This document shows, in pieces, positions 6,267 through 42,714 of a stretch of 64,000 nt of DNA (positions within the stretch are counted from its first letter, which is position 1; each line of letters starts with the position of its first letter). The DNA is from Haloplanus rubicundus (GTDB taxonomy: Archaea > Halobacteriota > Halobacteria > Halobacteriales > Haloferacaceae). The translations under genes were made by a program, and so were the position numbers. Location of the stretch: positions 806,001-870,000 of the forward strand of contig NZ_CP031148.1 in assembly GCF_003342675.1 (NCBI RefSeq). The letters are read 5' to 3'. The notes beneath the pieces are model-generated. The model had not been told where the DNA came from. It saw nothing but the letters and a program-made list of their open reading frames with translations, and searched no databases.

Positions 6267-6902
6267 ATGGGCATCCTCGAAGACAAATCTCGGGCGCGGC
6301 TGTTCTACAAGTACCTTTCGAAGGTGTACGACCAGGTCAACCCGTTCATCTGGAACGAGGAGATGCGCGCGGAGGCGCTGGAACTCCTCGATCTCGCCCC
6401 CGACGACCGGGTGCTCGACGTGGGCTGTGGCACCGGCTTCGGCACCGAGGGCCTCCTCCAGTACACCGACGACGTCCACGGTCTCGACCAGAGCATCCAC
6501 CAGATGGAGAAGGCGTTCACGAAGTTCGGCCGGACCGACGAGGTGAACTTCTACCGCGGCGACGCCGAACGCCTCCCGTTCAAGGACGACAGCTTCGACG
6601 CCGTCTGGTCCTCCGGCTCCATCGAATACTGGCCCAACCCGGTCGACGCGCTGGCGGAGTTTCGCCGGATCGTCGAGCCCGGCGGCCCGGTTCTCGTCGT
6701 CGGCCCCAACTACCCCAGCAGCTCCGTGTTCCAGCGGCTCGCGGACGCAATCATGCTCTTTTACGACGAAGCGGAGGCCGACCGCATGTTCGCCGAGGCC
6801 GGCTTCGACGACGTGAACCACGTCACGATGGGACCGGCGTACAACCCGGACATCGCCATCACGACGCTGGCGCGGGTTCCCGAGAACGATCGTAGCGAGT
6901 GA
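6267..6902 (+). CDS. Class I SAM-dependent methyltransferase (MPBQ/MSBQ-type)
   Basis: A 211-aa methyltransferase. Motif I is V-L-D-V-G-C-G-T-G-F-G (about residues 48-58), and the acidic residue of motif II is in H-G-L-D-Q-S. D-A-V-W-S-S-G-S-I-E-Y-W and the post-motif L-A-E-F-R-R-I-V-E-P-G-G-P-V follow. The S-I-E-Y-W-P-N-P element and overall length resemble plant-type MPBQ/MSBQ and menaquinone ring methyltransferases, so quinone methylation is a reasonable guess. No genetic link here confirms it. A TATA-like GTTATG near 6236 supports this start. Confidence 0.75.
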   Translation: MGILEDKSRARLFYKYLSKVYDQVNPFIWNEEMRAEALELLDLAPDDRVLDVGCGTGFGTEGLLQYTDDVHGLDQSIHQMEKAFTKFGRTDEVNFYRGDAERLPFKDDSFDAVWSSGSIEYWPNPVDALAEFRRIVEPGGPVLVVGPNYPSSSVFQRLADAIMLFYDEAEADRMFAEAGFDDVNHVTMGPAYNPDIAITTLARVPENDRSE

Positions 6903-6928
6903 AACTGTGCAATGACTTTCACTCACTG

Positions 6929-7363
6929 CTAGACCGTCGCCGTCAGCGTCACCAGTTGCCGCCCGTCGTAGCGAAGCGTGACCGTTACGCGAGCGCCGGC
7001 CACGACCTGCGGCTGGTTCGTCGATGCCAGCCGAACCGACGCGCGTTCCCCAACCTCCCACGTCGGATCGGCGGCGGCGTTGAACGGTCCGGTCGGTCCC
7101 GGCCGAAACCCTCGCGCCGAGAAGAACGGAACCGGCGGCTGGTGGCGCAGGGGGTCGCCGTCGACGCGGACGACCACGTCGAGGCGGCGCACGTCGACCG
7201 ACTCACCCGCCCGGTGGGTCAGGACGAGCCGATCCCCGTCGACCGCGAGGGTCGCGCCGGCGACGGTCGGCGCCGTGGGAAGTACCCCGAGGCCGACGGC
7301 CGCGACGGCCGTCCCGACGACGATGGCACAGACGACGCCGGTAGCGGCGGCACGGCCAGCCAT
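6929..7363 (-). CDS. Pilin-like single-helix exported protein
   Basis: A 144-aa protein with one N-terminal hydrophobic segment (about residues 8-30) after a short M-A-G-R-A-A-A start, then a beta-rich domain (V-D-V-R-R-L-D-V-V-V-R-V, V-T-V-T-L-R-Y-D). This resembles the archaeal type IV pilin N-terminal-domain families (DUF1628-like). The tripartite signal is not clear enough to be sure of prepilin peptidase processing. It starts 16 bp after the stop of the upstream secreted protein on the same strand, so the two are likely cotranscribed. Confidence 0.6.
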   Translation of the reverse strand: MAGRAAATGVVCAIVVGTAVAAVGLGVLPTAPTVAGATLAVDGDRLVLTHRAGESVDVRRLDVVVRVDGDPLRHQPPVPFFSARGFRPGPTGPFNAAADPTWEVGERASVRLASTNQPQVVAGARVTVTLRYDGRQLVTLTATV

Positions 7364-16150: not shown

Positions 16151-16208
16151 CGGGCTCGTCCGGCTTATTGTAACTGTTTGCCGGTGGTTCGCCGAGACGG
16201 TCCGGTGA
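16151..16208. repeat. 58-bp intergenic element, copy 1
   Basis: An ungapped alignment to 48011-48068 gives 46 of 58 identical bases by eye, with two fully identical blocks: CCGGTGGTTCGCCGA (16181-16195) and TCCGGTGA (16201-16208). Within each copy CCGGTGG and CCGGTGA are spaced exactly 21 bp. The copy sits 20 bp past the guaA stop and 88 bp before the DUF2070 start, both on the minus strand. It could be a regulator-binding site or a 3'-end element. Confidence 0.55.
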
Positions 16209-16227
16209 AGACGTACAATAGCCCGTA

Positions 16228-16776
16228 TCAGCGACAGCGCTCGATGAAGTTCGCGAACAGTTCCTCGCCCTCCTCGGTGTGGGCCACTTCGGGGTGCCAC
16301 TGGACGCCGTAGAGGTCCCGGTCCGCGTCGCTCATCGCCTCGATGTCGCAGACGTCGCTCGTCGCGGTGTGAGTGAAGCCGGTGGGGAGTTCGACTACCT
16401 CGTCGGCGTGGCTCGCCCACACCCGCGTCTCGGGGGCGAGCGACCCGACGACCGGGTCGTCCGCGTCGACGATGCGCACCGTCACGTCGGCGTAGCCGCC
16501 GTAGTCGCCGGCGTCGACGGCGCCGTCGAGTTGGGTGGCCATGATCTGCATGCCGAGGCAGATGCCGAGGACGGGCACGTCCATCTCGAGGTACTCCGCA
16601 CAGCGGCCGATCCGGTCCATGTCGGGGCCGCCCGAGAGGACGAGGCCGTCCACGTCGAGGTCCTCGGGCGGCGTCGTGTTGTCGACGATGTCGGTGTCCA
16701 CGCCCGCGTCGCGGAGCGCCCGGTGCTCCAGGTGCGTGAACTGACCGTGGTTGTCGACGACGACGATTCGAGTCAT
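16228..16776 (-). CDS. guaA: GMP synthase (glutamine-hydrolysing), subunit A
   Basis: A 182-aa archaeal glutamine amidotransferase subunit that feeds ammonia to the separate GuaB-type synthetase subunit for XMP to GMP. N-terminus I-V-V-V-D-N-H-G-Q-F, G-G-P-D at about residue 49-52, nucleophile elbow G-I-C-L-G-M-Q near 72-78, and Q-W-H-P-E-V near 162 give a complete Cys-His-Glu triad. The TATA-like CTTTTAC at 16807-16801 is 28 bp upstream. The synthetase subunit is not in the window. Confidence 0.95.
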   Translation of the reverse strand: MTRIVVVDNHGQFTHLEHRALRDAGVDTDIVDNTTPPEDLDVDGLVLSGGPDMDRIGRCAEYLEMDVPVLGICLGMQIMATQLDGAVDAGDYGGYADVTVRIVDADDPVVGSLAPETRVWASHADEVVELPTGFTHTATSDVCDIEAMSDADRDLYGVQWHPEVAHTEEGEELFANFIERCR

Positions 16777-29732: not shown

Positions 29733-30464
29733 ATGGACCTCATCGAGGCGCTGTCGGCCGACACCGACCTCGTCTGTGTCGTCGGCGCCGGCGGCAAGAA
29801 GACGACGCTGTACACGCTCGCGAACCAGTTGGACCGCGCCGTCGTCACCGCGACGGTTCGCATCCCCATCTTCGACGAGCAGGTCGCCGCGGTGCGTGTC
29901 ACCCGCGACCCCGTGGGGGCGCTCCGCGACGCGGCCGCCGACGCGTGGCCGCTCGGTCTCGTCCCCGAACGGGAGCGCGACGACCGCTATCTCGGCTACG
30001 ACCGCGAGACGGTCACGGCCATCCGCGCGACGCCCGGTCACGGGCCGGTGCTGGTGAAAGCCGACGGCGCCCGCACTCGCCTCCTGAAGGCCCCCGACGA
30101 GCGCGAACCGCAGATCCCCGCGACGGCCGACACCGTCATCCCCGTCGCCAGCGCCCAGGTCGTCGGCAAACCGCTCTCGGACGCCCACGTCCACCGCCCG
30201 GAGCGCGTCGCCGACCTGACCGGCCTCGACCTCGGCGACCCAATCGGCCCCGAGGACGTGGGCACCGTCCTCGCACATCGGCTGGGCGGGCGCAAGCGCG
30301 TCCCGCCGAGCGCGACGGTCGTCCCGCTGATCAACATGGTCGACGACGACGAGTTGGCCGAGACGGGCCGGGAGATCGCCGCGGCCGTCCACGACCGCGC
30401 CGACGTGCCGCGCGTGGTGCTCGCGCGGATGCTCGACGCCGAGGTGGTGGACGTGATCGAGTAG
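29733..30464 (+). CDS. yqeC: YqeC-like selenium/molybdenum cofactor protein
   Basis: A 243-aa protein with the P-loop-like start V-C-V-V-G-A-G-G-K-K-T-T (residues about 14-25) and the V-L-V-K-A-D-G-A-R-T-R motif, as in the YqeC family. In bacteria YqeC goes with maturation of molybdenum hydroxylases and selenium-containing cofactors. The convergent neighbour mobA and nearby moaE support a role in molybdenum-enzyme maturation. In-frame upstream Met residues exist; M-D-L-I-E is chosen as start. Confidence 0.85.
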   Translation: MDLIEALSADTDLVCVVGAGGKKTTLYTLANQLDRAVVTATVRIPIFDEQVAAVRVTRDPVGALRDAAADAWPLGLVPERERDDRYLGYDRETVTAIRATPGHGPVLVKADGARTRLLKAPDEREPQIPATADTVIPVASAQVVGKPLSDAHVHRPERVADLTGLDLGDPIGPEDVGTVLAHRLGGRKRVPPSATVVPLINMVDDDELAETGREIAAAVHDRADVPRVVLARMLDAEVVDVIE

Positions 30465-30482: not shown

Positions 30483-30810
30483 ACGAACGCTCCTCCACCC
30501 GTCGCGTTCGGAACCGTTCGCGGCCCGATCGCACGTGGGTGTGCGATCGGTCCGGCAGTGGCTTACGAACGCTCCTCTACCCGTCGCGTTCGGAACCGTT
30601 CGCGGCCCGATCGCACGTGGGTGTGCGAGCGGCCCGGCAGTGGCTTACGAACGCTCCTCTACCCGTCGCGTTCGGAACCGTTCGCGGCCCGATCGCACGT
30701 GGGTGTGCGATCGGTCCGGCAGTGGCTTACGAACGCTCCTCCACCCGTCGCGTTCGGAGCCGGTTTCGGACCACTCGCCCGTTGGCGGGCGAGCGGTCCT
30801 TCGATGGGCT
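30483..30810. repeat. 82-bp tandem repeat, four units, over the 3' end of mobA
   Basis: The same block starts at 30483, 30565, 30647 and 30729, and its first bases recur at 30811 inside mobA; every interval is 82 bp. Units 1-3 are almost identical; unit 4 is diverged. On the minus strand each boundary encodes ...E-E-R-S followed by a stop, i.e. the last residues of MobA. Each unit also carries a hairpin: units 1-3 have GATCGCAC/GTGCGATC arms with a GTGGGT loop (unit 2 with one mismatch). Unit 4 has different arms, CTCGCCCG/CGGGCGAG (30774-30793), flanked by GGACC/GGTCC. The 344-bp gap holds nothing else. Confidence 0.9.
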
Positions 30811-31432
30811 ACGAACGCTCCTCCAACCGCCGCGCCGCGTCCTCGAAGTCCGCCCGTGTGTTGCAGTTCTCGAAGGTGTGGGGGACGCCGTGGTCGCGCA
30901 CTTCGTCGGCGTCGACGACGACGAAATCGAGCTCGAACAGCGGCGCGACGATACGTTCTTCACCCTCCGCCAGCGCCGCCTCGCAGGCGTCGGCCATCGC
31001 CGCGGCGCGGTAGACGGCGTGGGTAGTCTCGAACCACTGCTCCGGCCGGGGGACCGCGGCGTCGTGACCCGCCGCGCGCTCGAACAGGTAGTCGACGAAG
31101 CCCGGATCGACGAACGGCATGTCGCAGGCGACGACGAAGGCGTACTCGCTCTCGACGGCGCGGAGCCCCGTCGCCATCCCCGCCATCGGCCCCTCGTCGG
31201 GGTAGTCGTCCTCCGCGAAGGAGACGGGAACGGCGGCGCCGTCGAGGGCCTCGGCTATCGCCGCGCGCTGGGCGGCGCGGCAGTTGATCACGACGGCGTC
31301 GACGGCCGGCGCCACGCGGTCGACCACCCGCCGGATCATCGGTGCCCCCGCGAGGTCGGCCACTGCCTTGTCCTCGTCGCCGAACCGCGTCGACCGGCCG
31401 CCGGCGAGCACGACGGCAGTACGCTCGGACAT
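30809..31432 (-). CDS. mobA: Molybdenum cofactor guanylyltransferase MobA-type
   Basis: A 207-aa nucleotidyltransferase that attaches GMP (or CMP) to molybdopterin. The N-terminal V-V-L-A-G-G-R-S-T-R-F-G signature binds the nucleotide, and D-K-A-V-A-D-L-A-G follows. F-V-V-A-C-D-M-P-F-V-D near residue 97 is the metal site, and the C-terminal N-C-N-T-R-A-D matches MobA. The last residues (R-R-L-E-E-R-S) are copied in the downstream 82-bp repeats. Promoter sequence is also duplicated. Convergent with yqeC. Confidence 0.9.
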   Translation of the reverse strand: MSERTAVVLAGGRSTRFGDEDKAVADLAGAPMIRRVVDRVAPAVDAVVINCRAAQRAAIAEALDGAAVPVSFAEDDYPDEGPMAGMATGLRAVESEYAFVVACDMPFVDPGFVDYLFERAAGHDAAVPRPEQWFETTHAVYRAAAMADACEAALAEGEERIVAPLFELDFVVVDADEVRDHGVPHTFENCNTRADFEDAARRLEERS

Positions 31433-31449
31433 GACCCCAGCTACAGCAT

Positions 31450-31498
31450 CCACCTTTTTACTTCGTCGGGTGACGCCCACCTTTTTACTTCGTCGGGT
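31450..31498 (-). repeat. 27-bp duplication of the mobA promoter region
   Basis: CCACCTTTTTACTTCGTCGGGT occurs at 31450-31471 and again at 31477-31498, offset 27 bp. Read on the minus strand each copy contains AGTAAAAAGG, TATA-like. The proximal copy is centred about 27 bp upstream of the mobA ATG at the right place for a leaderless promoter. A hairpin GGTCGCGC/GCGCGACC (31496-31514) and one with arms 31545-31551/31565-31571 follow toward truA. Confidence 0.7.
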
Positions 31499-31606
31499 CG
31501 CGCTTCGCGCGACCGCTCCTCGCAAAAAGCTGGACCAAAAACCGCCGCGACTCGCTCGCCGCTCGTCGCGGTCGCTCGTGCTGGACCGTTCCGCACCGCC
31601 CCAAAG

Positions 31607-41681: not shown

Positions 41682-42620
41682 ATGGTCAGCGACATCCTCG
41701 CCCCCGCGGCGATGCTCCACCTGCTCGGCGGGCTGGTGCTCGCGACGCTCGTCCATCAGGACGCGTCGCTCCGGGGCCACCACCGGCCGCTCGCCCTCGC
41801 CGCCGGCACGCTCGTTCTCGGCGTCCTCGGCGCCGTCGGCTACTACGCCGTCCGGGAGCGGATCGGCGAGCTGCCGGCCGACGCGACCCGGGTCCGGGCG
41901 CCCATCGGGGCGCGTACCCGCGACCTGTTCAAGGGCGTCCTCCTGATCGTCGGCGCCTTCCTCTGTGCGACGGCCGTCGTCGGCCTCGGCGCGAACGCCC
42001 TCGTCGCCGCGGGCGTCGTCGTTCGCGACACCCTCGAATTTCGGGTCGTCGCCGCCGTCCTCCAGTTTCTCGGCTTCGGCGTCGGCGTCGGCGGCTACCT
42101 CCTCGTCACCCGCGACTGGGACCTCGTCGAGGTTCGCGTCCCGACGCTCCGGACCGTCGGCCTGATCGCCGTCGGCGTCGTCGCCCTCGTCCTCGCCCAG
42201 ATCGCCATCGCCCGCCTGCTGACCGTCCTCGGCATCTCGGTCGCCCAGAACCAGGTCGTCGTCACCGGCCAGCAGGACCCCCGCTACTTCCTCTATATGA
42301 TCCCCGTCGCCATCCTGCTGGTCGGTCCCTTCGAGGAACTCGTCTTCCGCGGTGGCGTCCAGGGCATCCTCCGGCGGACGTGGGGCCCCTCGGTCGCCAT
42401 CGTCGTCGCGAGCGTCCTCTTCGGTCTCGTTCACTGGATCGCGCTCACCGGCGGTGGCGGCTCGCGAATCCCCTACGTCACCGTGGCCGCGACGCTCGGT
42501 CTCGTCCTCGGCTACCTCTACGAGCGGAGCCGGAACCTCGTCGTTCCGGCCGTCGTTCACGGTCTCTACAACACCGTGCTGTTCGGCGCGCAGTATCTGT
42601 CGGCGACGGGGATGGGCTGA
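41682..42620 (+). CDS. CPBP family intramembrane metalloprotease
   Basis: A 312-aa membrane protein with about eight helices. The CPBP (ABI/CAAX protease-like) motifs are P-F-E-E-L-V-F-R-G-G near residue 210-219, with E-E and R, then L-V-H-W near 245 and the second-site V-V-H-G-L-Y-N near 292. These give the expected Glu/His zinc or catalytic set. The substrate is unknown. The last codons are included in a 40-bp tandem repeat. Confidence 0.88.
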   Translation: MVSDILAPAAMLHLLGGLVLATLVHQDASLRGHHRPLALAAGTLVLGVLGAVGYYAVRERIGELPADATRVRAPIGARTRDLFKGVLLIVGAFLCATAVVGLGANALVAAGVVVRDTLEFRVVAAVLQFLGFGVGVGGYLLVTRDWDLVEVRVPTLRTVGLIAVGVVALVLAQIAIARLLTVLGISVAQNQVVVTGQQDPRYFLYMIPVAILLVGPFEELVFRGGVQGILRRTWGPSVAIVVASVLFGLVHWIALTGGGGSRIPYVTVAATLGLVLGYLYERSRNLVVPAVVHGLYNTVLFGAQYLSATGMG

Positions 42621-42698
42621 CCCCTCGCCGAAGCGCATCCGGACGACGGGGATGGGCCGACCCCTCGCCGAAGCGCATCCGGACGACGGGGATGGGTC
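42604..42698. repeat. 40-bp tandem repeat over the CPBP stop codon
   Basis: The block starting CGACGGGGATGGG begins at 42604, 42644 and 42684 with an exact 40-bp period. The first two units are nearly identical over the full length; the third is cut off after about 15 bp. Unit 1 contains the final A-T-G-M-G codons and TGA of the CPBP gene. In units 2 and 3 the TGA is CGA. Confidence 0.85.
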
Positions 42699-42714
42699 GA
42701 CGCGGGACGGAACC

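Follow-up and report, generated by a model that had tools for sequence, protein, structure and literature searches.

IS630-type MITEs, haloarchaeal MITEs and small mobile repeats (PMC3119063), as well as minisatellites linked to MITEs (PMC4596501), are kinds of repeat that are already known. Duplication of the TA target is the rule for transposons of the IS630/Tc1/mariner group (PMC2170065), and the small mobile repeats (SMRs) of Haloquadratum walsbyi were described without target duplication and with ends unrelated to known transposons (PMC3119063). Here we analysed a stretch of 64,000 nucleotides of Haloplanus rubicundus, referred to as the window, which carries a tandem array between the genes mobA and yqeC. 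What appeared to be a regulatory hairpin array was traced to a transposon history: the array units are very probably decayed, locally multiplied copies of an IS630-type MITE that inserted at the mobA end. The array is ordinary in kind; the interesting part is the class-wide MITE family, which is very widespread among haloarchaea and rewrites gene 3' ends and stop codons. No description of this 84-bp family was found in the part of the literature that was covered, and the family is thus only possibly new.

Results

The features of the locus, in window coordinates, are:

29733-30464, plus strand: yqeC, convergent with mobA (TIGR03172, PF19842)
30483-30834, no strand assigned: tandem array of period 82 (80-bp element plus one TA), 4.3 copies (TRF)
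30504-30572, plus strand: unit 1, yqeC-proximal, probable degenerate MITE core (model R1, 42.6 bits, E 5e-9)
30586-30654, plus strand: unit 2, probable degenerate MITE core with a half-way stem change (model R1, 35.3 bits, E 5e-7)
30668-30736, plus strand: unit 3, probable degenerate MITE core (model R1, 42.6 bits, E 5e-9)
30750-30818, plus strand: unit 4, mobA-proximal, the most derived (model R1, 18.7 bits, E 0.018)
30809-31432, minus strand: mobA-like molybdenum cofactor guanylyltransferase (Pfam PF12804; best NCBIfam match TIGR02665, below cut-off)

The initial annotation, made from the sequence alone, had described an array of 82-bp period between two convergent genes, and both points were confirmed. 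TRF delimited the array at 30483-30834 with 4.3 head-to-tail copies, 90% matches, zero indels and a score of 536; yqeC ends at 30464 on the plus strand and mobA at 30809 on the minus strand. The period is the longest among the tandem arrays that TRF found in the window, and the second strongest array of the window is a 40-bp repeat at 42604-42701 (2.5 copies, 96%). Pairwise, units 1-3 differ at 1-3 of 84 bases. Unit 4, to which a completely different stem had been attributed, in fact aligns with unit 1 without gaps at 20/84 differences (76% identity in register), and its decayed ends are common to units 1-3. A coding role of the array was dismissed by argument, because 82 is not divisible by three and any frame shifts from unit to unit; open frames across the array are ordinary for GC-rich DNA.

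Alignment of the mobA end to the element showed that the last codons of the gene (GAG GAG CGT TCG TAG) overlap a decayed element terminus. Every unit contains (G/A)GAGGAGCGTTCGTA, the same as the mobA end, and 15 bp are common to the gene end and the units. The earlier claim that the units copy the last codons of mobA is right as to the shared sequence and wrong as to its source, which is at least partly the terminus of the element; the GAGGAG part may instead be mobA's own. Just upstream of mobA (window 31446-31500) the short direct repeat CACCTTTTTACTTCGTCGGGT occurs twice, and a similar pair is located upstream of mobA in genome G008 (L018).

A dispersed 84-bp element

When the family was searched with the array, two sister genomes proved to contain places similar to one unit, with 73-76% identity over some 60-80 bp. 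These places are copies of a palindrome, TATAGTAGCG...CGCTACTATA, with a length of 84 bp, and such dispersed copies in sister genomes have about 73-75% identity to the unit along some 80 bp. With one of the sister copies as the query, the element was found in 10 of the 12 genus genomes, and in the window's own genome this search detected about a dozen dispersed copies and three of the array units, the latter with E 4e-5. Matches to the array outside the genus (L115, L117-L120) were short GC-rich similarities without the ends of the element and were rejected as family members.

The covariance model R1 was built from 33 aligned dispersed copies, none of them from the window. The element ends in terminal inverted repeats of 14 bp; further inwards come a conserved 7x7 internal loop and an inner stem of 15 bp with covarying pairs, and at 84 bp the element is too short to encode a transposase. 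R1 matched all 12 Haloplanus genomes, two of them weakly or rarely, and 124 out of 292 Halobacteria genomes, representing 37 of the 77 genera sampled, with the best matches at full length. Plasmid records with the element include those of Haloferax mediterranei, Haloarcula hispanica and Natrialba magadii; among phage records no match to the element was found. Identical copies are present in some genomes (in G007, eight of the 20 fetched copies have one and the same sequence), and the family has therefore probably moved recently. The array units belong to the same family, with R1 matching them at positions 8-77 only and their outer 7 bases decayed. As neither the terminal repeats nor the TA ends are intact, the units are a relic and not an active member.

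Elsewhere in the window, a second, internally deleted copy of 46 bp was detected at 6888-6933 (model R1, E 0.0058), at the 3' end of a methyltransferase-like ORF (6267-6902) and facing a convergent minus-strand ORF. The terminus of this copy seems to provide the ORF with its final residues and its stop codon (GAT CGT AGC GAG TGA, DRSE and stop). A weak R1 match at 16157-16229 (17.9 bits, E 0.03), in the gap between two minus-strand ORFs, may be an old copy or a chance similarity. In G007, two copies in opposite orientation (L216 and L226) occupy nearly the same target, GGAGCGGAACTAC/AGCAG, as though each had landed in a separate copy of some other repeat.

Target site and relation to IS630 transposons

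For 40 copies with flanks, close relatives included, the target was rebuilt by removal of the element and one TA. The rebuilt target was CTAG for 29 of the 40, compared with 2.5% of the NTAN sites in the window and the fetched loci (P ~6e-38, an exact value not to be pressed, as the 40 copies include close relatives). Queries of joined flanks uncovered empty sites with a single TA in sister species: the flanks of L154 are 94% identical to G009 across the junction, those of L130 are 91% identical to G001, and there were further examples. Ragged junction alignments, e.g. L153, L156 and L222, were excluded from this evidence. The net insertion is 82 bp, that is 80 bp plus the duplicated TA, and the array period is likewise 82.

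IS630 transposons of ~1.06 kb with DDE_3 transposases, found in G007, G004 and G249, have ends that match the element at 20-22 of 28 bases. The match is seen at both ends, and beyond the first 8 bp it was equalled or bettered by 25-45 in 100000 shuffles. Three other IS630 groups in G007 were discarded as parents, their ends matching at 11-15/28 only. By these sequence features the 84-bp family is classified as an IS630-type MITE, which would be mobilised in trans by an IS630-family transposase. A search of G000 and G008 for DDE_3 gave no hits; G008 harbours identical element copies and yet no DDE_3 (IS630) transposase was found there, and the mover may have been lost from it. Because identical copies occur in a genome without a detectable DDE_3 transposase, it is conceivable that something other than an ordinary IS630 transposase recognises the class-wide hairpin, with its constant length of 84 bp, conserved loop and covarying stems, as folded DNA and moves the element, and that the mobA array is a structure-driven amplification; we consider this quite improbable.

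The mobA-yqeC junction in relatives

The junction was compared among the eleven genus genomes with a full mobA match. The ends of mobA and yqeC are -1 to 9 bp apart in seven of them, and a larger spacer is present in four. In G009, the closest relative by mobA identity, a 72-bp spacer aligns with units 1-3 as a single decayed unit (score 47, shuffles reaching at most 30); with unit 4 the spacer gave no significant alignment. The element is also present at mobA of G004, where excision of 82 bp yields a longer mobA end as read from the sequence (RRLEEEP and stop), and in G005 an element copy (54 bits) supplies the last residues of mobA. In a different family, Natrinema salsiterrestre carries the element at the mobA 3' end (L036, 3122-3196), where it encodes the C-terminus YSSR and the stop codon. 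The copies in G004, G005 and Natrinema are independent of one another, and the mobA end seems to be a repeated target, having been hit in no fewer than three Haloplanus lineages as well as in Natrinema.

Folding of the units

A hairpin had been proposed for each unit, and separate folding agreed with this, all four units being on average more stable than their shuffles as RNA (z of -2.0 to -3.5 for units 1-3 and -6.0 for unit 4, the strongest hairpin of the array at -51.9 kcal/mol). Compared with unit 1, the stem of unit 4 has C-G in place of A-T at two pairs, a mismatch that is repaired and a pair that is broken, the latter being a G-U on the mobA strand. Unit 2 represents a half-way state, with one of the changed pairs altered on a single side. 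The extra flanking pairs thought to be special to unit 4 (GCGTTCG/CGAACGC) are available in all four units and form the inner part of the terminal inverted repeats of the element. Survival of the pairing through sequence change was, on the other hand, corroborated: with unit 1 assumed as the starting point, 3000 trials in which about as many substitutions were placed at random in the same region never produced a fold as stable as that of unit 4, and random bases at the same positions as the changes in unit 4 reached its stability in 5/3000 trials. Given unit 1 as the start, pairing in the array is kept or improved beyond chance.

In the dispersed copies 91.6% of the cells in the two helices are paired. 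Matched double changes were found in 40 cells compared with 15 in shuffles (0 of 500 shuffles reached 40), and the covariation signal was lost on sliding the partner. The number of pairs with changes on both sides, 6, is not above the 6.0 of shuffles, so that few events may lie behind the matched double changes.

Both strands of the array were scanned for signals of termination, and neither T-runs longer than 3, nor a T-rich window, nor a terminator-like site was present. Promoter and terminator scans found nothing, and Rfam yielded no match above the gathering score, with two sub-threshold matches only.

Discussion

The unit had been interpreted as a duplicated mobA 3' end with its own terminator, an interpretation that we replace by that of a decayed MITE which very probably landed at the mobA end. 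Since the units are decayed copies of a dispersed palindromic element, the hairpin derives from the element and not from mobA. The intact element, which spans 80 bp, or 84 bp with the duplicated TA on either side, and adds 82 bp to its target, would be moved in trans by an IS630-family (Tc1/mariner-like) transposase with a preference for CTAG targets. Insertion at the mobA/yqeC junction would have taken place in an ancestor common to the closest sister species, before the split of G000 and G009, whereupon the element terminus would have become part of the mobA C-terminus and stop region and the element would have decayed. Later, and in the window's lineage only, the decayed copy would have been amplified into a tandem array, either through unequal recombination or through slippage during replication, with four units in an 82-bp register as the outcome. 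The hairpin is the palindrome of the element itself. Copying most likely came after decay, because the same decayed ends recur in all units and hardly any differences separate units 1-3; decay first and multiplication after, in this lineage only, is the probable order. The pattern of intact copies joined via a shared TA was absent, in its exact form, from 391 genomes of the class, and no other tandem array of the element was found. Tandem growth is therefore not a habit of the 84-bp family, and the growth step of the array is one that we infer for this locus as a one-off.

Counterpoints to the MITE origin are that unit 4 by itself reaches only E 0.018 with R1, that the IS630 ends are similar to those of the element, not identical, and that DDE_3 gave no hit in G000 and G008. 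The period equal to the net insertion and the units with one TA-sized joint would also suit an array that arose through repeated jumps of the element into its own terminal TA instead of through tandem duplication. However, the shared-TA junction of intact copies that such a process implies is the one missing from the 391 genomes, and near-identical units 1-3 with the same decayed ends are unlike independent insertions, which makes this course of events highly improbable. The 15 bp common to the mobA end and the units could, in turn, be taken to mean that the array is a local duplication of the mobA end that resembles the dispersed element by chance. The probability of this is practically nil: the independently built R1 model recognises units at E 5e-9, a result that refutes it, homologous copies occur at the same gene end in sister species, and the period of 82 equals the net insertion of the element.

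Several causes might have preserved the stem of the decayed MITE, and selection on RNA, selection on the element before its decay and arm-templated repair all fit its persistence. Arm-templated repair of imperfect palindromes is established in bacteria. If one arm was copied onto the other in replication or repair, the stem would persist by this route and not by functional selection, and the arm changes matched on both sides in dispersed copies (40 cells vs 15) point this way, though no host function is known for the element. Unit 2, however, is a half-way state and not a copied arm, selection linked to transposition would yield an equal pattern in dispersed copies, and the pairs with two-sided changes do not exceed shuffles; arm-templated repair is a candidate with somewhat less than an even chance. 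Of the explanations for the kept pairing the least supported is the terminator, which the initial annotation had suggested as one possibility beside RNA stability. The hairpins would then be kept for their action as RNA, ending the mobA and yqeC transcripts or stabilising their 3' ends, and the array would have grown since more hairpins work better. Convergent genes are a plausible site for such a signal, the strongest hairpin is that of unit 4 adjoining mobA, with pairing improved beyond random divergence, and partial termination in vivo by a haloarchaeal hairpin without a T stretch lends further support, as one such hairpin terminated 59% of transcripts in Haloferax volcanii (PMC7237163). 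Against this stand the absence of a T-rich stretch or terminator-like site on both strands, the broken pair in unit 2, the same hairpin in dispersed copies elsewhere, and the seven of eleven genus genomes where mobA and yqeC abut or overlap without a hairpin. Conservation of the hairpin at this junction in relatives, put forward as a test of its role, largely fails, as most sister species lack it, and we regard a function as RNA as unlikely. A part of the hairpin as substrate of repeat growth, also suggested before, is possible. Whatever the cause, the 84-bp family offers a natural test of how palindromes retain pairing while their sequence drifts.

Comparison with known systems

The element resembles MITEs of the IS630/Tc1/mariner group (mechanism as for ISY100, PMC2170065) in being short and non-coding, in its terminal inverted repeats and TA duplication, in ends like those of autonomous IS630 transposons of the same genus and class, and in its many dispersed copies. 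In contrast to these, its ends are only ~75% like the IS630 ends found, no DDE_3 transposase was detected in some genomes with identical element copies, and the copies in the window are decayed and in tandem. With SMR-A and SMR-B of H. walsbyi (PMC3119063) it shares the haloarchaeal host, a length in the range of 80-110 bp, prominent inverted repeats, tens of copies per genome and a mover that is unclear in some genomes; the TA duplication and the IS630-like ends set it apart from the SMRs as described. BrickBuilt, a MITE of Porphyromonas gingivalis that contains a minisatellite (PMC4596501), likewise ties tandem repeats to a MITE, but its 23-bp repeat is internal to the MITE and is met with throughout the genome, whereas here the whole element is the 82-bp unit and one locus only is concerned. 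Finally, the Rickettsia palindromic elements (reviewed in PMC10969869) are also palindromic mobile DNA that adds coding sequence to host genes, although the haloarchaeal element gives its hosts only a few C-terminal residues and a stop codon.
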